NCBI GenBank assembly: GCA_003153655.1
Contig: PMAK01000114.1
Location: 1,555-25,919, forward strand
Direction: 5' to 3'
Length of the DNA stretch: 24,365 bases
Origin: Phycisphaerales bacterium
GTDB taxonomy: Bacteria; Planctomycetota; Phycisphaerae; Tepidisphaerales; Tepidisphaeraceae
Notes under the pieces: generated by a model
The model's input: only the letters and a program-made list of their open reading frames with translations
Database searches by the model: none
Told to the model about the DNA's origin: nothing
Program-made: the position numbers and the translations under genes
Part shown: positions 1-13,197 of the stretch, one piece after another
Position numbering within the stretch: the first letter of the stretch is position 1
How the letters are laid out: each line of letters starts with the position of its first letter

Positions 1-568
1 CAATATTGTTAAAAGCTGCAGGCACGCGTCCAGATCCCGCGGTGTCGGTCCCGAGCGCGAAGCTGACTAGTCCCGCCGCCACCGCCACAGCCGACCCCGA
101 ACTCGATCCACCAGAAATATATTTGACATCAAATACATTTTGGCACGCCCCATATGGCGATCGCACGCCCGCTAACCCCGTCGCGAACTGATCCAGATTT
201 GTCTTACCAATAAGAATGGCTCCGGCATCACAAAGCTTCTGCACAACGCTCGCAGATTTCGCCGGCGTATAAGCGAATTCAGGACAAGCAGCAGTTGTGG
301 GCCGCCCAGCCACATCAATGTTGTCCTTAACGGCAAACGGAATTCCATACAGCGGCAACTTCCGTCCCTCAGCCCGTGCCGATTCAACAGCAGCGATTTG
401 CCTGCCAATTTCCCGCTGGTCCATCCGATCAATCCAAATTGCCGGATCGGGATATGCCTCGATCCGCCGGCGCACTTCCTCCATCACGTCGCCGACGCTC
501 CATTGCCTCCCGGCATACTGAGCAGCAAGCGTAACCAAATCCAGTGAGTCACTTGAAGCCAAGGCCAT
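1..568 (-). CDS. atzF: Allophanate hydrolase / amidase-signature enzyme, N-terminal part (cut by window edge)
   Basis: This is an amidase-signature serine hydrolase. By context it is the allophanate hydrolase that turns allophanate into ammonia and CO2, the last step of guanidine or urea carboxylation pathways. The 189 visible codons contain Lys81 in a VKDN context, the GGSSSG loop with Ser155, and the DTAGSGR motif with Ser179. The 24-residue gap between the two serines fits the Ser-cisSer-Lys triad of the family. The segment GKTNLDQFATG is typical of the AtzF/DUR1 branch. The ATG at 568 has AAGGA five bases upstream and lies 20 bases after the glnT stop, so it is the third gene of the leftward unit. 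The C-terminal half is outside the window, so a C-terminal allophanate-hydrolase domain cannot be checked. Another amidase is possible, but the neighbours make AtzF much the best reading. Confidence 0.85.
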   Translation of the reverse strand, partial: MALASSDSLDLVTLAAQYAGRQWSVGDVMEEVRRRIEAYPDPAIWIDRMDQREIGRQIAAVESARAEGRKLPLYGIPFAVKDNIDVAGRPTTAACPEFAYTPAKSASVVQKLCDAGAILIGKTNLDQFATGLAGVRSPYGACQNVFDVKYISGGSSSGSAVAVAAGLVSFALGTDTAGSGRVPAAFNNI

Positions 569-2982: not shown

Positions 2983-2997
2983 TGGCATCAAACTTGC
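2983..2997 (+). promoter_or_regulatory. Sigma-54 (-24/-12) promoter of crnA
   Basis: TGGCAT-CAAAC-TTGC matches the -24/-12 consensus with exact spacing and only a C-to-T change at the sixth base. It predicts a transcript start near 3009, only 15 bases before the crnA ATG at 3024. The leader is very short and the Shine-Dalgarno is weak (GGAT at about 3011). Confidence 0.8.
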
Positions 2998-3023
2998 GGC
3001 CCGCAGTTTTGGATTAATCCCTT

Positions 3024-3791
3024 ATGCAAAACGTTTTGCTCTCAGAAATGACCTGGCCGCAGTTGAAGGAACGCCTAACCCGACATCCAGTGATCTTCAT
3101 TCCCTGCGGCGCAACAGAGCAGCACGGCCCGCATTTGCCGCTTGGCGTCGATGTCTATCTTTCAACGGCAATGGCCACGAAAGTCGCAACCGAAATCGGC
3201 GGCATCGTAGCGCCGGCACTCGCATACGGATACAAATCTATGCCGCGATCAGGCGGCGGCTCATTCTTCCCCGGCACGATCAACTTGGATGGCTCAACCC
3301 TCAGTCATATGGTCCGCGACATCATTCGCGAATGGTCCCGCCACGGCGTGCAGAAACTCTGCTTCTTCGATGGTCATTTCGAAAACCAGTGGTTCATCAC
3401 CGAAGGCATCGACCTGGCGGTACGTGAAATTCGCAATCCCGCGCTAAAGGTCATGCGTTTCGAGTATTGGGATTTCTTCACCACCCAAACGCTGCAGCAG
3501 GTGTTTCCCTCGGGCGATTTCTCCAGCATCGCCCTGGAACATGCCGCGGTAATCGAAACGTCGCTCATGCTCCATTTTCATCCGGACCTGGTGCGCAAAG
3601 AACTTATTCCCGACAATCCCTCGGCAAATCCGCCGCCTTATGATGTTTTTCCCGCCGATCCAAAATTCACTCCAAAATCCGGCGCTCTAATCACCGCGGC
3701 AGGCGCCTCACCCCTCAAGGGAAAAATCATGGCCGACCAGGCGGCAGCAGATATCGCCACAGCAATGCGCAAGACGTTCGATGCATCCTAA
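3024..3791 (+). CDS. crnA: Creatininase (creatinine amidohydrolase)
   Basis: This 255-residue protein closely resembles Pseudomonas creatininase, which interconverts creatinine and creatine with two metal ions. Glu32 and His34 in ATEQHGPHLP, Asp43, His118 and Glu120 in DGHFEN reproduce the metal ligands with a constant offset of two from the Pseudomonas numbering as I remember it. The segments YGYKS, SGGGSFFPGT, LEHAAVIETSLM and PPYDVFP are also family hallmarks. A Trp corresponding to Trp154 is present (Trp149 in EYWDFF). At the place of the flexible gate Trp174, just before the EH pair, the residue appears to be Ile, so substrate range may be altered. It is transcribed alone from its own sigma-54 promoter and its stop overlaps the end of the converging gene. 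No creatinase (creatine to urea plus sarcosine) is seen nearby. Confidence 0.82.
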   Translation: MQNVLLSEMTWPQLKERLTRHPVIFIPCGATEQHGPHLPLGVDVYLSTAMATKVATEIGGIVAPALAYGYKSMPRSGGGSFFPGTINLDGSTLSHMVRDIIREWSRHGVQKLCFFDGHFENQWFITEGIDLAVREIRNPALKVMRFEYWDFFTTQTLQQVFPSGDFSSIALEHAAVIETSLMLHFHPDLVRKELIPDNPSANPPPYDVFPADPKFTPKSGALITAAGASPLKGKIMADQAAADIATAMRKTFDAS

Positions 3792-4543
3792 AAGATGAAA
3801 TCGCACTGATGACCAGGGGGTGGCTCGAGAATCTCCCACGACCGCGATCCAATCAACTCTCTTTTGCTCCAATCTATATTCAGCTTGGAATCGCCGAAGG
3901 CCGATGTTCCCTCCCGCCAGAAGCACGCGGAGTCGCTTACGATCCACTCAGAAATCGGACCTGTCCGTATCCCGTGCGAAATCTCCACGTTGAATGGGTG
4001 TATCTGATGGTCCGATCCGTCAATCTTCCGATTGTCGATCGCCAGAATAAAATGTCGTCCCACAGCCACGAGCATTCCCACTTCACGCTCGCTCCTTAAA
4101 CGCATCACAAACGCTTCGCCGTTAGTTGAGGCCGCATCGTCGATCCTCTCCCAAACCTCGGTATACGACTCATCCACGCCTTCCTCGATCATCATTTGCT
4201 TATGCTCATCAGCGAATATGAGTCGGCCAATGTCGCGCTTGCCAGTTGGCGGGTTGAAGTCGAGCCATCGATTCCAAAGCCACGCCCCATTCGCCACCTC
4301 CAATGTCCCGGCAAATCCCTCCTGCCGGCTAAGCCAGGCTCGTTGCTCAGGATCGCAATCGCCCAGCGAACGAATCCCCGCAAACGAAGGCCGTTCCGCG
4401 GGAATCCGAATATCCACAAAATGCGTCCGCCCCTGCACCCACCAAACGCGCGTGGTTAAATCCTCGCGCCCATCCGGCCAGCGAATCGATCGCCGCGACC
4501 AGACGCCGATCAATGAATCCAAATCTTCAACCCGAACTCCCAT
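3788..4543 (-). CDS. Unrecognised conserved-looking protein in the guanidine/creatinine island
   Basis: I do not recognise this 251-residue protein. It has no signal peptide or membrane span, is rich in Trp, Arg and Asp, and alternates short polar and hydrophobic stretches. It begins with LIGVWSRRSIRWPDG followed by a TRVWWVQG strand and later RDIGRLIF and VGRHFILAIDN. This suggests a mostly beta fold, perhaps a calycin-like barrel that binds a small ligand; that is a guess. The ATG at 4543 gives a compact N terminus, whereas a GTG at 4627 adds 28 residues of low-complexity Cys/Arg-rich sequence without a ribosome site. Its end overlaps the crnA end by four bases, and it lies between crnA and the transporter operon. 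It may serve the same pathway as a sensor, binding or accessory protein. Confidence 0.65.
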   Translation of the reverse strand: MGVRVEDLDSLIGVWSRRSIRWPDGREDLTTRVWWVQGRTHFVDIRIPAERPSFAGIRSLGDCDPEQRAWLSRQEGFAGTLEVANGAWLWNRWLDFNPPTGKRDIGRLIFADEHKQMMIEEGVDESYTEVWERIDDAASTNGEAFVMRLRSEREVGMLVAVGRHFILAIDNRKIDGSDHQIHPFNVEISHGIRTGPISEWIVSDSACFWREGTSAFGDSKLNIDWSKRELIGSRSWEILEPPPGHQCDFIF

Positions 4544-4701
4544 CGGCCGCCACTTTATCGACCGGTGCAACGGAGCGCCACATCCAGATTGCCCGTTCGA
4601 CAGGCATCGGCATACAAAACCGCACACTGACCAAGCATCATCGCTCCGTCACATTTGTCCTCAACCGCCGGATTCAGCAATCTCCGGCCACTTCTCGCCG
4701 C

Positions 4702-4717
4702 TGGCACCGCCATTGCA
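4702..4717 (+). promoter_or_regulatory. Sigma-54 (-24/-12) promoter of the transporter/guanidine carboxylase operon
   Basis: TGGCACCGCCATTGCA is a perfect match to TGGCAC-N5-TTGCA with the correct spacing, and it predicts a transcript start near 4728. It is the strongest of the three -24/-12 sites in the island and drives a leader of about 226 nt before the first gene. The remainder of the gap to the left, 4544-4701, must hold any activator sites and the promoter of the leftward gene, but I see no convincing element there. Confidence 0.85.
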
Positions 4718-4727
4718 ATGTCTAAAG

Positions 4728-4953
4728 CCAGACAGGTTGGTCCCGCCGCACGGCGTAGATGCTGATCCGGGTCATTGATTCAGAAAAGCATCGAGTTTCG
4801 GTACAGCCGGACACCCGGCCTAGGCCGTCCGATCAACGACATGGGTTGGTTTCGGTATCTAAAGTCTCGATGTGCAGCCCGTCGTGGTATGTGCGGATCT
4901 TTAGACAGCCGAACCTGATTTTCCCGCCGAATTACTTAATGTCAGGAGTCCTC
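4728..4953 (+). ncRNA. Structured 5' leader of the transporter operon, candidate cis-regulatory RNA
   Basis: The leader can fold into several hairpins in order. A small one is CGCC/GGCG at 4744-4755. The next pairs GATGCT (4758-4763) with AGCATC (4787-4792). The next has arms CGGAC (4808-4812) and GTCCG (4827-4831) around the perfect palindrome CGGCCTAGGCCG (4816-4827). The longest pairs TCTAAAG (4858-4864) with CTTTAGA (4899-4905) and continues through GGTTTCGG (4848-4855) against CCGAACC (4909-4915). An alternative stem, CCTGAT (4914-4919) with GTCAGG (4941-4946), would cover the AGGAG ribosome site and competes with the foot of the long hairpin. That layout is riboswitch-like. The conserved core strings of guanidine-I, -II and -III riboswitches as I remember them are absent. 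Confidence 0.5.
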
Positions 4954-5958
4954 ATGAAAGGCGCTACGCGAGCCGTCGTCTGTACTTTTGTTTTGTCGCT
5001 ATTTTCCATGGCCGCCATCTCGGGGGCAGACCCTCTAAAGATAGGCTATAGCGATTGGCCAGGCTACGTCGCCTGGGAAGTTGCGATACAAAAGGGCTTC
5101 TTCAAGGACGCCGGCGTCGACGTCCAATTTATCTGGTTCGAATACGGACCCAGCATCGACGCCTTCTCCGCTGGAAAGATTGATGGCGTCACCATCGTCG
5201 CCGGCGATGCCATCTGCACCGGCGCCGGCGGAAAACCCTCCACCGGCATCTTGCTCGAAGACTATTCCAACGGCAACGACATGATCATCGGCAAGCCGGG
5301 AATCAACTCCGTCAAAGACCTCAAAGGCAAAACCGTCGCCGTCGAATTTGGCCTCGTCGAGCACGAATTGCTGCTAAAAGCCCTCGAAACCAACGGCATG
5401 ACCGACACCGACATCACCCTCCAAAAAATCTCCACCAACGACGCGCCGCAAACCCTCGCCTCGGGCAAAGTAGACGCCGTTGGCTGCTGGTATCCAATCT
5501 CCGGCCAGGCCCTCAAACAGGTCGGTGGCAGCAAGCCGCTATTCACCAGCGCGGACGCACCCGGTCTGATCTTTGACGAGCTGGCCGTCAGCAAGGAAAG
5601 CCTCGCCACCCGCCGCGATGACTGGAAGAAAGTCGTCAGCGTTTGGTTCCGCACGGTCGATTTCATCAACGATCCAAAGACCCGCGACGAAGCGATCAAG
5701 ATCATGTCCGGCAAGGTAAGCGTCCCAGCGGATGAATACGCCAAGAGCTTGGGCGGCACCGCGATCCTGGGTCTCAACGAGAATCTCAAGGCCTTCCAGA
5801 AAAGTGATTCGATGCTGTCCATCTATGGCTCGATGAAGATCTCCAACGACTTCTATATCAAGTACCAGGTCTACAAGGATTCGCAGGACACCAATGGCTA
5901 CGTGACGCCTCGCCTCATCGAGGAAGTCACCGGCAAAAAGCCGGAAGACGCCAAATGA
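4954..5958 (+). CDS. Periplasmic substrate-binding protein of a NitT/TauT-type ABC transporter, probably for guanidine
   Basis: This 334-residue solute-binding protein starts at the ATG with AGGAG five bases upstream. An open frame continues 65 codons upstream, but that stretch is leader RNA and does not look coding. Residues 1 to about 24 form a signal peptide (positive start, hydrophobic core, cleavage near SGA-DP). The mature part begins with LKIGYSDWPGYVAWEVAIQ, the typical first strand of NitT/TauT or SsuA-like binding proteins, and has the usual VKDLKGKTVAV segment and the ASGKVDAVG segment. It should deliver its ligand to the permease encoded next. Guanidine is the expected ligand because the transporter is co-transcribed with carboxyguanidine enzymes and related transporters accompany such operons elsewhere. 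Nitrate, taurine or aliphatic sulfonates are less likely here. Confidence 0.88.
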   Translation: MKGATRAVVCTFVLSLFSMAAISGADPLKIGYSDWPGYVAWEVAIQKGFFKDAGVDVQFIWFEYGPSIDAFSAGKIDGVTIVAGDAICTGAGGKPSTGILLEDYSNGNDMIIGKPGINSVKDLKGKTVAVEFGLVEHELLLKALETNGMTDTDITLQKISTNDAPQTLASGKVDAVGCWYPISGQALKQVGGSKPLFTSADAPGLIFDELAVSKESLATRRDDWKKVVSVWFRTVDFINDPKTRDEAIKIMSGKVSVPADEYAKSLGGTAILGLNENLKAFQKSDSMLSIYGSMKISNDFYIKYQVYKDSQDTNGYVTPRLIEEVTGKKPEDAK

Positions 5959-5995: not shown

Positions 5996-7171
5996 GTGAA
6001 TCGCCGGCCGAGTTGGTTAGCAATCCGAGAGCCGCTTTCCCCACGCAAGGCAACCGCCTTGAAGTTGGCGAGCTTTCTCTTGCCTCTGCTGATCTGGAGC
6101 ATCGTCAGCTATGTGCCATTCATCTGGCACCCGATGATCCTGATCACCTCGGCCGGCGATTCCGACCTCTTCGTCAAAGGCGAACGCTTCACACGCGAAC
6201 TCTTCGCCTCCGAAAACGTCGGCCTGGTCAAGGATGGTCTGAAACCCGGCGAAGGCTACCGAGTCAATCCCGTCTTCCTCCCGGCTCCGCACGAGGTTTT
6301 GAAGGCATTCTTCGTAGCCTTCAAAACGCCTCCATATTCCAAGGGCGATCCCTGGCTCCATCAAAGCCTATGGCACAGCATTCAGATTATCATGTGGGGA
6401 TTCTTCAGCTCGGCGATCCTGGGCGTGCCGATGGGAATTCTCGCCGGAACATTCGATGCATTCTCAAAACTTTTTGAACCGTTCATCGACTTTATCCGCT
6501 ACATGCCCGCCCCGGCATTCGGCGCGCTCTGCGTCGCGCTGCTCGGAATCGATGATGGTCCAAAGATCGCCATCATCTGGATCGGCACGTTTTTCCAGAT
6601 GGTGCTGGTTGTCGCCAACACGACGCGCCTTCTAGACGTCGGCCTCCTCGAAGCCGCCCAAACCCTCGGCGCAAGCCGCCGAAGATTGGTCATCAATGTC
6701 ATCCTTCCCGGCATCCTTCCAAACCTCTACAACGACATGCGAATCCTTCTCGGATGGGCCTGGACATACTTAATCGTCGCTGAGCTAATCGGCGCCAGCA
6801 GCGGCATCAGTTGGTTCATTAACCAGCAAGGCAAACATTTCCACTTCGATAACGTCTTCGCCGGCATCATGATGATCGGAATCATCGGCCTGATCTGCGA
6901 TCAGTTCCTGGCACTCTTCTCGACCTATTTATTCCCATGGCTTCCCAATCGGCGCGGCACGTCAATGATGACCGTAGTTGCCGGCGCATTCCTCTTCTTC
7001 CCACAGAGATATCTATGGCAGCGGGGTCGCGACAAAGCCGCCAAGCGCGCCGAACGCCAATCGTCCGGCTCTATAGCCGCCAAACCCGCGAGCGTCGCCA
7101 CCAAGCCTTTCCCAGCTTCAATACACGAAGCGTCCGCTGGAGGAGCAATTGCAGATGTCTCAATCACTTGA
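5996..7171 (+). CDS. ABC transporter permease, NitT/TauT (SsuC-like) family
   Basis: This 391-residue inner-membrane permease starts at a GTG preceded by GGGAG at 5986-5990. A first span at about residues 24-45 is followed by an unusually long extracytoplasmic stretch (roughly residues 48-105) and then the BPD-type core with several spans. The EAA loop is clear: Glu219-Ala-Ala with Gly225 in [12 protein letters not shown], the contact site for the ATPase. A basic, Ala/Ser-rich tail of about 60 residues follows the last span. Both the large insert after span one and the tail make it longer than typical SsuC/TauC permeases of about 250-280 residues. It sits 37 bases after the binding-protein gene and overlaps the ATPase gene by 17 bases, which suggests coupled translation. 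Confidence 0.88.
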
Positions 7172-8054
7172 GCTTCCCAGCTATCTGGAAAAAGAGCCGG
7201 CGGTCGAGGATCGCTTTCGCCGCATCTACCAGCGACCGGTCGTCCTCGATGTCGCCGGACTTGGTAAAACCTTCCATGCCGCCAACGGCGTGGTCGAGGC
7301 CTTGCGGGATATTCACTTTAAGGTGCATCGCCGAGAATTCATCTGCGTCATCGGCCCGTCCGGCTGCGGCAAATCCACCCTCATCCGAATCCTCGCCGGC
7401 CTCGATTATCCAACCTCCGGCGCCGTCAAACTCGACGGCCACGAAGTATCCGGCCCCGGCCCCGATCGGGGCATGGTCTTCCAGAATTACACCCTCTTTC
7501 CATGGCTTACCGTCAAGCGCAACGTCATGTTCGGCCCGCGCATGAAAGGCCATCAATATCGCGTCTCCGAAGCCGAAGCCCGAAAGTGGATTAAAATGGT
7601 CGGCCTCGATCGCTTTGAAAATTCCTATCCCAACCAGCTTTCAGGCGGCATGAAGCAGCGCGTTGCCATCGCCAGGACGCTCGCCAATCAGCCGCGCATC
7701 GTGCTGATGGACGAGCCCTTCGGCGCGCTCGATGCCCAGACGCGTGCCCAAATGCAGGCGTATCTCCAACAGATCTGGCTCAACGTGGATGTGACAATCC
7801 TATTCATCACGCATGACCTCGATGAGGCGATTTACTTGGCCGATCGGATCGTTGTTCTTGATGCCCATCCTGGCCGCATCGCCGAAATCATCGAAGTCCC
7901 GCTTCCCCAGCCGCGCACGCCGGAGGATTTCATCAGCCCGAAATTCCTCGCCACGCGAAAAAGACTGGACACCCTGATTCATCCGCCGAAGATGAACGAT
8001 GAGGATCGTCTCCCGATGGTAAAAATGACCGAGCCGGGCGACGATGTGATTTAG
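7155..8054 (+). CDS. ABC transporter ATPase, NitT/TauT family
   Basis: This 299-residue ATP-binding subunit drives the importer encoded by the two preceding genes. Visible motifs are Walker [10 protein letters not shown] (67-75), the Q-loop Gln110 in [11 protein letters not shown], the signature LSGGM (162-166), Walker B RIVLMDEP (181-188), the D-loop ALDAQTR, and His220 in the switch loop FITHDLDEA. The sequence resembles SsuB/TauB-type ATPases. An N-terminal extension of about 30 residues precedes the first strand, and a tail of about 40 follows the last helix. The ATG at 7155 has AGGAG nine bases upstream. A TTG at 7149 would be too close to that site. The gene overlaps the permease end and is followed 16 bases later by the first DUF1989 gene. 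Confidence 0.92.
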
Positions 8055-8070
8055 AACGCGAGAGGAACCA

Positions 8071-8904
8071 ATGTCCACGGACCCACATGTCTCAACCCCG
8101 CTGAAAGCCCGCGATCATGCTCGCGCGCAGGCTTCCACTGTCGTCCGCGCGATGCCGACGATCCCAGCCAGCACCGCAAAAGATCTTCCCGCGGGCGTAA
8201 CCGCGCAGGATGTCGTCTGGGACGAAACATTGGACGCAGGCGACTATTGTGCCCGAATCCTAAAAGCCGGCACGCGCCTGCGTCTCACGAATCTCGAAGG
8301 CGACGCCTGCGCAAATCTCCTGGCCTACAACGCGGATCGCCCCATCGAGCGCATCAATGTCGCCGACACCATCAAAGTCCAGTGGAACGCCTACCTTGGC
8401 AAGGGAAAACTCATCCTCAGCGACATGGGCCGCGTCCTTCTAAGCATCATCGAAGACACCTGCGGCAACCACGACACCATCTGCGGCCCATCCACCGAAA
8501 AATCCAACGCCCGCAAATTCGGCCACGGCGAAAACTACAGCCCCTATCCAAACGCCCGCGACCGCTTTCTCCTCGGCCTCTTAAAATTCGGCCTGGGCAA
8601 AAAAGATATCGCACCCAATATCAATCTTTTCAAAGGCGTTCGAGTCGGCGAAGGTGGGGGGCTCCAATTCATACCCCGCAGCAGCAAGCCGGGCGACTAC
8701 GTCGAGCTCCGCGCCGAGATGAACGTCCTGATTGTCGTCGCCAATACACCTCACGTCCTCGATCCGCGAACGAAATACACTTGCACCCCTGTCCGTCTGA
8801 CGGCTTATCGCGGCCCCGCAACTGCGCAGGACGATCCCATACGCGTCGCTACGCCCGAATCGGCGCGGGCCTTCCAAAACACCGACGACTATTTTCTAAG
8901 CTAA
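8071..8904 (+). CDS. cgdA: DUF1989 protein, larger subunit of carboxyguanidine deiminase (formerly 'urea carboxylase-associated protein')
   Basis: This 277-residue DUF1989 protein is the first of a pair that always accompanies this carboxylase class. The pair is known to form a carboxyguanidine deiminase that releases ammonia and gives allophanate. The family core is clear: NLEGDACANLLAYN (residues 74-87), DTCGNHDTICGP (129-140) and KFGHG (149-153). Compared with its partner, the cysteines of the ACSCESN motif are replaced (Ser141 and Glu143 at those positions), so it may contribute little of the metal or nucleophile site and act as the structural half. It has about 45 extra N-terminal residues. 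The ATG has AGAGGA five bases upstream. The A/B letter is assigned by operon order and may be swapped in other naming schemes. Confidence 0.85.
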   Translation: MSTDPHVSTPLKARDHARAQASTVVRAMPTIPASTAKDLPAGVTAQDVVWDETLDAGDYCARILKAGTRLRLTNLEGDACANLLAYNADRPIERINVADTIKVQWNAYLGKGKLILSDMGRVLLSIIEDTCGNHDTICGPSTEKSNARKFGHGENYSPYPNARDRFLLGLLKFGLGKKDIAPNINLFKGVRVGEGGGLQFIPRSSKPGDYVELRAEMNVLIVVANTPHVLDPRTKYTCTPVRLTAYRGPATAQDDPIRVATPESARAFQNTDDYFLS

Positions 8905-8915
8905 GTGAGGCAATG

Positions 8916-9566
8916 ATGACCATGACGATGCCAATTGAGCCGTCCGCGATTGAGGGAAAGGTCGTGTTGGACCACGTCATACCCTCACGAGCTCCCTGGT
9001 CCGGCGTCGTAAAAAAGGGCCAGATTCTCCGCATCGTCGATCTCGAAGGAAATCAATCCGGCGATTGCATTCTCTATAATGCCGCCAATCCCGAAGAGCG
9101 ATATAGCGCCGCCCAGACAATGGTCGCCCAGAAAAATATCTTCCTCGCTCTGGGCACCAACCTGATGAGCAACGAAGGAAACGTCATGATGGTTGTCACC
9201 GCCGACACCCTCGGCCGCCACGACACCATCGGCGGCGCATGCAGCTGCGAATCCAACACCCTTCGTTACGGCCATCACACAAAACACCAGCACGCCTGCA
9301 CCGAAAACTTTCTCTACGAGTTAGGTCAGCACGTCATGGGCAAGCGCGACATGACCAGCAACATCAACTGGTTCATGAACGTCCCCGTCGAAGCCGATGG
9401 AACCCTCGGCATCGTCGATGGCATCAGCGCACCCGGAAAATACGTCGATCTGCTCGCGGAGATGGATACGCTGGTTGTCATCAGCAATTGTCCGCAGATC
9501 AACAATCCCTGCAACGGCTTCAATCCGACGCCATTGCGTGTGATCGTGACCGAACCACGAGGATGA
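8916..9566 (+). CDS. cgdB: DUF1989 protein, smaller subunit of carboxyguanidine deiminase
   Basis: This 216-residue DUF1989 protein is the partner of the preceding gene in carboxyguanidine deamination. It contains DLEGNQSGDCILYNA (42-56), LGRHDTIGGACSCESN (99-114) with His102, Cys109 and Cys111, then RYGHH (117-121) and Cys128. This dense Cys/His cluster looks like a metal or catalytic site and is largely missing from the larger subunit, which suggests that this one carries the active centre; that is inference. Four in-frame ATGs lie at 8913, 8916, 8922 and 8928. GAGG at 8907-8910 gives the best spacing to 8916. It begins 11 bases after the previous stop and ends 25 bases before the carboxylase. 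Confidence 0.85.
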   Translation: MTMTMPIEPSAIEGKVVLDHVIPSRAPWSGVVKKGQILRIVDLEGNQSGDCILYNAANPEERYSAAQTMVAQKNIFLALGTNLMSNEGNVMMVVTADTLGRHDTIGGACSCESNTLRYGHHTKHQHACTENFLYELGQHVMGKRDMTSNINWFMNVPVEADGTLGIVDGISAPGKYVDLLAEMDTLVVISNCPQINNPCNGFNPTPLRVIVTEPRG

Positions 9567-9591: not shown

Positions 9592-12500
9592 ATGTTCAAA
9601 AAAGTTTTAATAGCCAACCGGGGCGAAATCGCCTGCCGGATCATTCGCACCCTAGATCGCCTCGGAATCGCCTCCGTCGCGGTCTATTCGGAAGCGGATG
9701 CGCATTCGTTGCACGTCTCCGCGGCCGGCGAATCCGTCTGCATCGGCCCCGCGCCCGCCGCGCAAAGCTATCTCCGCGGCGATCAAATCCTCGAAGCCGC
9801 CGCCAAAACCGGCGCCGAGGCCATTCACCCCGGCTATGGCTTCCTGAGCGAAAATGCCGACTTCGCCGACGAATGCGCCCGCGCCGGCGTAACTTTCATC
9901 GGCCCAACTCCCGACCAAATGCGAAGCTTTGGTCTGAAACACGCCGCCCGAGAGATTGCACAAACCTGCAAGATTCCCTTGCTCCCCGGCACCGATCTCT
10001 TAGTCAGCGCCGAAGAAGCCAAAAAATCCGCCACCCGCGTCGGCTATCCCGTCATGCTAAAAAGCACAGCCGGCGGCGGGGGGATCGGCATGCGACTCTG
10101 CCACGCGGACTCCGAACTCTCCGAATCCTTCGACGCAGTCCAACGCCTAGGAAAAAACAATTTCAAACATACCGGCATCTATCTCGAAAAATACGTCCAA
10201 AACGCCCGCCACATCGAAGTCCAAATCTTCGGCGACGGCAAAGGCACCGTCTTAGCCCTTGGCGAACGAGATTGCTCCACCCAGCGCCGAAACCAAAAAG
10301 TAATCGAAGAGACACCCGCTCCCGGAATCAGCAACCGGCTTCGCCAACAACTCTTCACCGCCGCTGTCGCTTTAGGACAAGCCGCAAAATACCAATCCGC
10401 CGGCACAGTTGAATTCATCGTCGACTCCGACACCGAATCCTTCTACTTTCTAGAGGTCAATACCCGCTTGCAGGTTGAGCACGCCGTCACCGAAGAAGTC
10501 ACCGGCATCGACCTCGTCGAGTGGATGATCAAACAAGCCGCAAATGAGTTGCCGCCGCTAACCAGCTTCAATATTTCCCCCAAAGGCGCGTCAATCCAGG
10601 TGCGTCTGTACGCTGAAGACCCAGCCAAAAATTTCCAACCTTGCTCAGGTTTTCTCCAAAACGTTAAATTTCCCGAATTCGCCCGCATCGAAACCTGGGT
10701 TGAGCGTGGCTCCGAGGTCACGGCCTTCTACGATCCCCTCATCGCCAAAATAATCGTCAAAGGCGCAGCGCGCGATGCTGCTCTGAAAAATCTCCAATCC
10801 GCGCTGGCGGAAACAAGAATCGCCGGAATTGAAACCAATCTCGATTACCTCCACCAGATTCTGAATGACCCAACCTTCCGCCAGGGCAAAATCACCACGC
10901 AATTCCTTGGCAAATTCAAATACGCACCGAACACCATTGATATCCTGAAACCCGGCACCCAAAGCACGGTCCAGGATTACCCCGGCCGCACCGGCTACTG
11001 GTCCGTCGGCGTTCCCCCGTCGGGCCCCATGGACTCTCTCGCCTTCCGGTTGGGCAACCGTATCGTCGGAAATCCCGACACCGCCGCGGGATTGGAACTA
11101 ACCGCCACCGGCCCAACCCTCCGCTTCAATATTCCCGCAACAATCGCCCTGACCGGCGCAGCGATGGACGCAACCATCGACGCCAAACCCGTCCCGTACT
11201 GGAAATCAATTGGAGTTTCTGCCGGCGCGATCTTAGAAATTAAATCCATACAAGGCCCCGGCACAAGAACCTATCTCTCCATCCGCGGCGGCATCGACGT
11301 ACCTCCCTATCTCGCCAGCAAAGCAACGTTCACCCTCGGAAAATTCGGAGGCCACGCCGGCCGTCCGCTCCGCGCCGGCGACGTTCTCCGTCTCGCGAGC
11401 CCCGACGATTTATCAACTCCAACTCCAATCGATCCCAACCTGATCCCAAAGTACTCTAGCGCCTGGGACATCGGCGTAACGTACGGCCCGCACGGCGCAC
11501 CCGATTTCTTCACCGAATCAGACATCGAAACATTCTTCCAAACCGCATGGAAGGTCCACTACAACTCCGACCGCACCGGCGTCCGCCTCATCGGCCCGCA
11601 CCCAACCTGGGCCAGAAAAGACGGCGGCGAAGCAGGCCTCCACCCCTCCAACATCCACGACAACGCCTACGCCATCGGCACCGTGGATTTCACAGGCAAC
11701 ATGCCTGTCATCCTGGGCCCTGACGGCCCGAGCCTGGGCGGATTCGTCTGCCCCGTCACCATTATCCAATCCGAACTCTGGAAAATGGGCCAACTCCGCC
11801 CGGGCGACACCATCCGCTTCCACGACGTCACCATGCAACAAGCCCTGCAAGCGGAAAAATCACAAGACGAAGAAATCAAAACGCTAAAACCAACTACACG
11901 CGCTGCGAACTTCCCAACCAAAGCTCAGGGAACTGGCTTGCTGGGGACTCCAATAATCCATCGCATCCCCGGGAAAATCGAAGTTGTCTACCGCCAGGAC
12001 GGCGACAAATATCTCCTCCTTGAATACGGACCTCTGGTTCTCGATCTCAACTTACGTTTCCGCGTCCACGCAATGCTGGACTATCTGGAAGCAAATCCCC
12101 TGAACGGGATCATCGACCTGACGCCCGGAATCCGCTCGCTCCATATTCACTACGACAGCCGAATCCTGCCACCGCAAAAATTGCTTGATGCCCTGATCGC
12201 CGCCGAGGCGAAATTGCCGGATGTCGATCATATCCAGGTTCCCACGCGCATCGTTCATCTTCCTCTTTCCTGGGACGACCCGGCAACCCAACTCGCGATC
12301 CAAAAATACACCCAATCGGTGCGTCCCGACGCGCCATGGTGCCCGAGCAACATTGAATTCATCCGCCGCATCAATGGGCTGAATTCAATCGACGAAGTAA
12401 AACAAATCGTCTTCAATGCCAGCTATCTCGTCCTTGGCCTCGGCGACGTCTATCTTGGCGCACCCGTTGCCACACCCATTGATCCACGTCATCGTCTCGT

Positions 12501-13197
12501 CACCACCAAATACAACCCGGCCCGCACCTGGACTCCCGAAAACGCCGTCGGCATCGGCGGCGCATACCTCTGCGTCTACGGCATGGAAGGCCCCGGCGGT
12601 TACCAATTCGTCGGCCGAACCTGCCAGATGTGGAACACCTACAAACAAACCGCCGACTTCAAAGACGGCAAGCCCTGGCTTCTCCGTTTCTTTGACCAAA
12701 TCCGTTTCTACCCGGTAACAGCCGCCGAGTTGCTCCGCTTCCGCGCCGATTTTCTTCAAGGCAAGGTCAAGCTCGACATTCAGGAAGAAACCTTCAGCTT
12801 GAAGCAGTACAACCAATTTCTTGCCGACAACCAGGCTTCAATCGCCAAATTCAAAACCAAACAACAAGCCGCGTTCGACGAAGAGCGAGCCAGATGGGAA
12901 GCCGCCGGCACATTAGTAACCGCCGCCGAGCCGCCCGAAACATCAGACGACAAAGGCCCCGCCGCGCTTCCGCAAGGCTGGGTCGCAGTTTTCGCTGAAG
13001 TCCCCGGCAACATGTGGAAGATCGACGTAAAAAAAGGCCAGAAAATCACCGTCGGCTCGCGATTGGCCATCATCGAATCCATGAAAATGGAAATCTCGGT
13101 ATCCGCCCCGGCAGCGGGAGAAATCGGCGACATTTTCTGCGCGGAAGGCCGGGTCGTGTCTGCGGGACAGGTCCTCTTCAGCATCAAGCCGGAATAG
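9592..13197 (+). CDS. Biotin-dependent guanidine carboxylase (often annotated urea carboxylase)
   Basis: This 1201-residue multidomain enzyme carboxylates guanidine (or urea) with bicarbonate and ATP. Residues 1 to about 448 are biotin carboxylase: LIANRGEIACR, HPGYGFLSEN (79-88), the glycine loop STAGGGGIGM (158-167) and EVNTRLQVEH with Asn290, Arg292 and Glu296. Residues from about 450 form an AHS2/PxpC-like half (STVQDYPGR) and from about 795 an AHS1/PxpB-like half (YGPLVLDLNLRF; YGMEGPGGYQFVGR), together the carboxyltransferase. A biotin carrier domain at the end carries ESMKME with biotinyl Lys1165; Ser replaces the usual Ala of AMKM. In the substrate-site segment TVDFTG, Asp699 seems to correspond to the position that is Asn in true urea carboxylase and Asp in guanidine carboxylases. 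The length is standard for bacterial stand-alone enzymes. The hydrolase partner lies in the leftward unit. Confidence 0.92.
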   Translation: MFKKVLIANRGEIACRIIRTLDRLGIASVAVYSEADAHSLHVSAAGESVCIGPAPAAQSYLRGDQILEAAAKTGAEAIHPGYGFLSENADFADECARAGVTFIGPTPDQMRSFGLKHAAREIAQTCKIPLLPGTDLLVSAEEAKKSATRVGYPVMLKSTAGGGGIGMRLCHADSELSESFDAVQRLGKNNFKHTGIYLEKYVQNARHIEVQIFGDGKGTVLALGERDCSTQRRNQKVIEETPAPGISNRLRQQLFTAAVALGQAAKYQSAGTVEFIVDSDTESFYFLEVNTRLQVEHAVTEEVTGIDLVEWMIKQAANELPPLTSFNISPKGASIQVRLYAEDPAKNFQPCSGFLQNVKFPEFARIETWVERGSEVTAFYDPLIAKIIVKGAARDAALKNLQSALAETRIAGIETNLDYLHQILNDPTFRQGKITTQFLGKFKYAPNTIDILKPGTQSTVQDYPGRTGYWSVGVPPSGPMDSLAFRLGNRIVGNPDTAAGLELTATGPTLRFNIPATIALTGAAMDATIDAKPVPYWKSIGVSAGAILEIKSIQGPGTRTYLSIRGGIDVPPYLASKATFTLGKFGGHAGRPLRAGDVLRLASPDDLSTPTPIDPNLIPKYSSAWDIGVTYGPHGAPDFFTESDIETFFQTAWKVHYNSDRTGVRLIGPHPTWARKDGGEAGLHPSNIHDNAYAIGTVDFTGNMPVILGPDGPSLGGFVCPVTIIQSELWKMGQLRPGDTIRFHDVTMQQALQAEKSQDEEIKTLKPTTRAANFPTKAQGTGLLGTPIIHRIPGKIEVVYRQDGDKYLLLEYGPLVLDLNLRFRVHAMLDYLEANPLNGIIDLTPGIRSLHIHYDSRILPPQKLLDALIAAEAKLPDVDHIQVPTRIVHLPLSWDDPATQLAIQKYTQSVRPDAPWCPSNIEFIRRINGLNSIDEVKQIVFNASYLVLGLGDVYLGAPVATPIDPRHRLVTTKYNPARTWTPENAVGIGGAYLCVYGMEGPGGYQFVGRTCQMWNTYKQTADFKDGKPWLLRFFDQIRFYPVTAAELLRFRADFLQGKVKLDIQEETFSLKQYNQFLADNQASIAKFKTKQQAAFDEERARWEAAGTLVTAAEPPETSDDKGPAALPQGWVAVFAEVPGNMWKIDVKKGQKITVGSRLAIIESMKMEISVSAPAAGEIGDIFCAEGRVVSAGQVLFSIKPE

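Follow-up and report, generated by a model that had tools for sequence, protein, structure and literature searches.

A conserved structured leader RNA at the predicted start of sigma-54-dependent transcripts in one family of Phycisphaerae, a riboswitch candidate for guanidine or a related compound

We found that the first half of the leader upstream of an operon for nitrogen compounds (about 4728-4842 of the window, the whole stretch of 24,365 nucleotides that we analysed) is a conserved RNA element, in which a closing stem (P1) surrounds three hairpins (P2-P4; Table 1). The element has a 50-base core with a mean identity of 93% across six copies, compared to 60% in shuffled sequences, and all six copies precede a gene for an NMT1-like substrate-binding protein (SBP). 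P3 and P4 differ in length from copy to copy, and P3 shows covariation. Judged by comparison of these sequences, the element appears to be a riboswitch-like structured leader RNA of a class uncatalogued where we examined it. The best explanation, to which we give about an even chance, is that 4728-4842 forms the 5'-terminal four-stem domain of a sigma-54-dependent mRNA and is most likely an aptamer for guanidine or a related guanidino/ureido compound, acting as an ON switch. The computed support for this explanation consists of the element itself, its fold, its location upstream of SBP genes and at the point where the transcript is predicted to start, and the guanidine-type operon of the window.

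Table 1. Features of the window at and downstream of the leader
Feature	Position	Strand	Remarks
Sigma-54 (-24/-12) promoter, TGGCACCGCCATTGCA	4702..4717	+	strict pattern; predicted start 4728
Conserved RNA element	4728..4842	+	model span, flanks included; R1 105.5 bits, R2 85.2 bits (window copy in training set)
GACAG, conserved unpaired 5' end (one copy GACAA)	4731..4735	+	alignments A1, A3
P1, 5' strand	4736..4742	+	pairs with 4831-4837
P2 hairpin, 4 bp, 4-nt loop	4744..4755	+	pairs without any variation
Junction TA, invariant	4756..4757	+	alignments
P3 hairpin; 21-39 nt across six copies	4758..4792	+	4 pairs changed on both sides
Junction GAGTTT, conserved (one copy GAGATT)	4793..4798	+	alignments
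P4 hairpin; 12-47 nt across six copies	4799..4827	+	comparative fold
Junction TCC, invariant	4828..4830	+	alignments
P1, 3' strand	4831..4837	+	comparative fold
Remaining leader, not conserved; contains the long hairpin and anti-Shine-Dalgarno stem described earlier	4838..4953	+	
NMT1-like ABC substrate-binding protein gene	4954..5958	+	first gene of operon
ABC permease and ATPase genes	5996..8054	+	
Two DUF1989 genes, UAAP1 and UAAP2 (carboxyguanidine deiminase-like CgdAB)	8071..9566	+	NCBIfam: urea amidolyase associated proteins
Carboxylase, NCBIfam name urea carboxylase	9592..13197	+	guanidine-carboxylase residues

Copies of the element were found with the SBP, the protein of the first gene, as the query against 198 relatives, the window's own genome included. 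Some match was obtained in 29 of the 198, with nine places in eight genomes at an E value of 1.8e-94 or better, and reading and pattern searching upstream of the orthologs revealed a block common to five loci (the window, L004, L007, L031 and L006). A covariance model built from these five copies (R1) and run over the 198 genomes found its training copies and a sixth copy absent from training, on contig C37 of genome G021 (60.4 bits, E 2.7e-13), which precedes an SBP gene 35% identical to that of the window. The next best match, L037, reached 28.5 bits; it sits opposite a long open reading frame and was rejected. Nine more matches scored 18 to 20.5 bits. Within the window's family, the six copies are distributed over five of 26 genomes.

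A second model built from all six copies (R2) recovered the same six from 397 class genomes (72.3 to 97.4 bits; next match 26.1) and, from 392 genomes of the phylum, the window copy and otherwise unrelated matches of at most 36.4 bits; the samples overlap, and large searches use stricter filters, under which weak matches are lost, so that diverged copies may have been missed. R2 matched 15 distinct further places in class and phylum genomes at E 0.01 or better, all at 36.4 bits or less, one of which (L063, 24.1 bits) belongs to G021. We rejected the best of the 15 (L064) as a palindromic repeat, and the other 14 as resembling coding sequence or lacking the core (all judged by eye, with genes not called). 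L064, from a genome of the same phylum, contains GC-rich palindromic repeats of the GGGACC...GGTCC type at 1440-1760, the source of this best chance match. A pattern scan of genome contigs, a set possibly without genomes near the window's, gave one match, within an open reading frame that is sulfatase-like by eye and in which R1 gave no match; the pattern had no match in viral contigs.

The fold was derived by running RNAalifold on MAFFT alignments that were not fitted to structure, with column shuffles within conservation and gap classes as the control. For the six copies (143 columns, 43 invariant), the consensus has P1 closing over P2, P3 and P4 at -20.84 kcal/mol, compared to -10.90 (sd 2.82) for the shuffles, one of 400 of which was as low; the alignment of five copies gave the same four stems (3 of 400 as low). 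RNAalifold gave -15.7 for the opposite strand and 0.0 for the downstream leader. When the alignment was fitted to the model, 96.7% of the cells in stems paired, compared to 17-57% when the structure was slid, a figure from an alignment that leans towards structure; in this alignment the changes on both sides of a pair all fall in P3, and one P1 pair is seen as GU, AU and GC. In the unfitted alignment of five copies, the signal relative to pair shuffles was weak (the covariation score was reached in 19 of 500, and the number of paired cells in 59 of 500). Since P2 is invariant and P1 and P4 have one varying pair each, covariation rests on P3 and the other stems on complementarity. When hairpins were folded in isolation, 17 of 18 were closed at their termini. 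Taken as a whole, the leader is not unusually stable (z -0.58; opposite strand -1.02), and thus proof of the element is comparative; a search by folding energy alone would not have detected it.

Outside the core, identity is lower: it is at the shuffled level (61%) in the flanks, taken as 100 nt upstream of the promoter region and 100 nt downstream of the element, and 69% in the first 600 coding bases, compared to 64% when shuffled. A coding explanation of the element is disfavoured because the length differences of P3 and P4 are not multiples of three. The reading frame of the SBP stays open in the upstream direction as far as an ATG at 4759 (an ORF of 399 amino acids), across most of the RNA element; we favour 4954 as the start of the SBP, from the preceding AGGAG and the signal-peptide-like beginning of the predicted protein.

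A preliminary description of this DNA had drawn the leader as a series of hairpins, the first two of which fold as drawn and correspond to P2 and P3, but it overlooked the closing stem P1. Its third hairpin (4808-4831) survives as an alternative pairing (z -1.19), the comparison favouring P4 in its place. The two repeats that it reported do occur twice each (TTTCGGTA at 4796 and 4850, TCTAAAG at 4721 and 4858); the conserved core includes no more of TTTCGGTA than TTTCGG in its first copy.

Upstream of all six copies lies the pattern (T/C)GGCA(C/T)-N5-TTGC, with GG and GC boxes at the -24/-12 spacing of sigma-54 promoters. Counted from the sequences, the distance from promoter to GACA is 14, 12, 12, 13, 13 and 12 nt (window, L004, L007, L031, L006 and L047, respectively), and if transcription is assumed to start 12 nt after the C, GACA lies at +2 to +4 in all six. 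The start predicted in this way for the window coincides with the left end of the leader in the preliminary description. By way of background, the pattern occurs 36 times in the 755,872 positions of the loci studied, an overlapping set that includes the six copies. A sigma-54 gene is present in the window's genome, and we infer that the mRNA is transcribed from the predicted sigma-54 promoter. With a looser pattern, a similar box was found at three of four orthologs without the element (L003, L008 and L009; not L005), so the promoter is more widespread than the RNA. Within the window, a creatininase gene (3024; region 2983-3791; above the NCBIfam cut-off) has a sigma-54-like box at 2983-2997 and almost no leader, and sigma-54 control here thus need not involve the RNA element.

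We considered that the element might be bound by a nitrogen-control protein, such as an antiterminator or a translational regulator, and itself sense no small molecule. This would fit both its presence on sigma-54 transcripts from nitrogen gene clusters of varied composition and its confinement to one family, as with lineage-specific protein sites. The best-conserved bases, however, are those of the multibranch junctions and those near P1, which is where aptamers are usually most conserved, and we regard protein binding as rather unlikely.

Turning to what an aptamer might bind, the window operon is, by its sequence, guanidine-type. In an alignment with the Kluyveromyces lactis urea amidolyase (5i8i), D699 of the window carboxylase lies opposite N1330, and the Asp of its GLGDVY motif aligns with position 1584 (counted by hand in this alignment). 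Asp at these two K. lactis positions marks guanidine carboxylase, and carboxyguanidine deiminase belongs among DUF1989 pairs, according to portions of PMC11410670; an excerpt of PMC12186494 gives the Asp/Asn rule likewise. Since both of these Asp residues are present, we take the window operon to be a guanidine operon. An allophanate hydrolase gene (G000:C95:362-1996, minus strand), which adjoins GlnT-like and creatininase-family genes, overlaps the left edge of the window (window 1-442), and this predicted gene neighbourhood seems to contain a complete guanidine pathway. Two further observations concern other parts of the window. The strongest predicted fold among 60 stretches sampled along the window lies at the start of the permease gene (6001-6226; -94.6 kcal/mol, z -5.5, reached by 0 of 200 shuffles) and could tune expression of the SBP relative to the permease. 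On the minus strand, 3788-4627 encodes a protein that matches Pfam HRI1 (PF16815, E 2.2e-10, above the gathering score).

At the other loci, the gene partners of the element differ. The copies in the window and in G012 head complete guanidine operons with transporter, DUF1989 pair and carboxylase. In G002, the SBP gene behind the copy is cut by the contig end, and a second contig, which probably continues the first, carries an SBP tail, transporter, DUF1989 pair and the start of a carboxylase gene; the G014 copy is followed by SBP and permease genes up to the contig end. Both copies in G021 head clusters with no carboxylase, one consisting of SBP and then GlnT-like genes (C61), and the other of SBP, TadA-like deaminase, permease, ATPase, second SBP and biuret-hydrolase-like enzyme genes (C37); the GlnT, TadA and biuret-hydrolase names come from scores below NCBIfam cut-offs. 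The operon behind the C37 copy (L049, 3391-8891) possibly encodes a guanylurea or biuret route. Among the nine close SBP places, the element is present at five (the window, G014, G002, G012 and G021:C61), and we found no element match at G021:C41, G078, G079 and G152, except one of 10.8 bits in G078. At G021:C41, the SBP gene lies opposite genes for creatininase, a GlnT-like protein, two DUF1989 proteins and a carboxylase; the guanidine-carboxylase cluster of G021 is without the element, and the two copies in this genome head other clusters. The operon is also present without the element in G078 and G079.

These arrangements bear on the possibility that the ligand is a nitrogen-status signal or some other compound (e.g., glutamine, urea, guanylurea or biuret) rather than guanidine, such that the element is a riboswitch of other specificity. 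The two copies of six that head clusters without a carboxylase argue for this, as does the G021 carboxylase cluster that lacks a copy, which together with the element-less operons of G078 and G079 is the point against guanidine as the ligand. On the other hand, the window and G012 copies, and probably that of G002, head guanidine operons. Moreover, in Pseudomonas mendocina MET, as an excerpt of PMC9800807 describes it, a guanylurea hydrolase of the same family as the biuret-hydrolase-like enzyme is encoded beside a gene annotated as cytidine deaminase, which makes guanidino chemistry plausible at G021:C37, and guanidine could link both kinds of cluster. Thus weighed, a different ligand strikes us as unlikely.

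Downstream of about 4840, the six leaders have 34% mean column identity, two invariant columns and no consensus fold, and we found no conserved terminator or anti-Shine-Dalgarno sequence across them. At its best, pairing between the Shine-Dalgarno region and the leader was not above that of shuffles (p 0.14 to 0.90 in the six leaders; 0.35 in the window). There was a weak hint that the P1 3' strand has partners in the downstream leader, with a combined p of 0.015, uncorrected for three kinds of test and due mostly to L006 (the strongest) and L031; for the P1 5' strand the combined p was 0.62. Neither anti-Shine-Dalgarno switching nor switching by the P1 5' strand is supported. We also rejected a C-rich 3' leader as a Rho-loading region, with C/G ratios of 0.86 to 1.42 and no consistent excess.

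An element that fills the opening ~110 nt of the predicted transcript, with no conserved platform, might simply give the transcript a structured 5' end for protection or positioning, or be a self-cleaving RNA, and have no part in regulatory sensing. We consider this very unlikely, because junctions that are near-identical though the SBPs share only about 35% identity would seem to exceed the needs of a protective hairpin. Expression platforms are often poorly conserved, so the ribosome-site switch of the preliminary description, in which 3' leader stems and a CCTGAT/GTCAGG stem govern the ribosome site, may be a device specific to the window, and both strings are indeed in the leader, but it is scarcely credible given that the CCTGAT/GTCAGG stem is not conserved, that the long hairpin (4848-4915; z -2.57 alone) is not conserved among the six leaders, and that Shine-Dalgarno pairing is no better than shuffled in any of them. 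That description named as its refutation a lack of conservation or covariation of the stems in related leaders; by this test the 3' half of the leader fails and the 5' half stands.

Its broader proposal, a structured riboswitch-like leader unlike the known guanidine classes, agrees with the conserved structured domain found here, which has no Rfam match where examined. Searches with Rfam 15 gave no match over the element up to E 10 in window 4500-5100, L031 and L007, and cmscan at the gathering score gave none over the element in ten ortholog loci. The NMT1 motif, a xanthine riboswitch, lies before NMT1-family genes as the element does; the element has no match in Rfam, a library in which we assume the NMT1 motif to be present. 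Guanidine-I (ykkC, RF00442), guanidine-II (RF01068) and guanidine-III (RF01763) are likewise 5' leader RNAs before guanidine-metabolism genes, and guanidine-I in other bacteria precedes carboxylase operons, according to portions of the published work, as the element does in the window. In contrast to this likeness in position, the covariance search with these three models, which the preliminary description had proposed, gave nothing over the element, and under stricter filters none of the 198 relatives yielded a guanidine-I match (the positive control matched in B. subtilis). The guanidine-IV (GGAM-1) and GGAM-2 to GGAM-6 candidates, as sections of PMC7736828 present them, are also structured leaders, found by comparing guanidine-linked upstream sequences, and several likewise have no obvious expression platform; they come from other phyla, mostly before sugE genes, and it is by these listed lineages, not by alignments, that the element is set apart from them. 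We found no published report of the element in searches of the literature on guanidine riboswitches, guanidine carboxylase, sigma-54 and planctomycetes/Phycisphaerae.

If the element is an aptamer for guanidine or a related compound, nitrogen limitation would lead to sigma-54 transcription of an mRNA that opens with it, the substrate (guanidine or a related guanidino/ureido nitrogen compound) would be bound by the aptamer, and the bound substrate would permit expression of the transporter and breakdown genes, that is, a substrate-induced ON switch. Guanidine-I in other bacteria permits expression when the substrate is present, according to portions of PMC11410670. Because a conserved terminator or anti-Shine-Dalgarno sequence was not found, the output may occur via species-specific pairing or another mechanism. 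The points against this explanation are that the copies number six and come from one family, that covariation comes only from P3, and that no platform is conserved. The element is thus perhaps a lineage-restricted riboswitch candidate, for guanidine or a related compound. That it represents a further guanidine riboswitch class, unrelated to the catalogued ones, limited to one family and built onto sigma-54 promoters, is conceivable but doubtful. If true, nitrogen shortage (through sigma-54) and the presence of the substrate (through the RNA) would be read jointly on one transcript, and the element would be an example of a structured leader that occupies the very start of a sigma-54 transcript. 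Guanidine-I was found in none of the 198 relatives searched, yet some of them have guanidine-carboxylase operons, and the element offers a short RNA, with natural variants, with which to probe how the substrate may be sensed.
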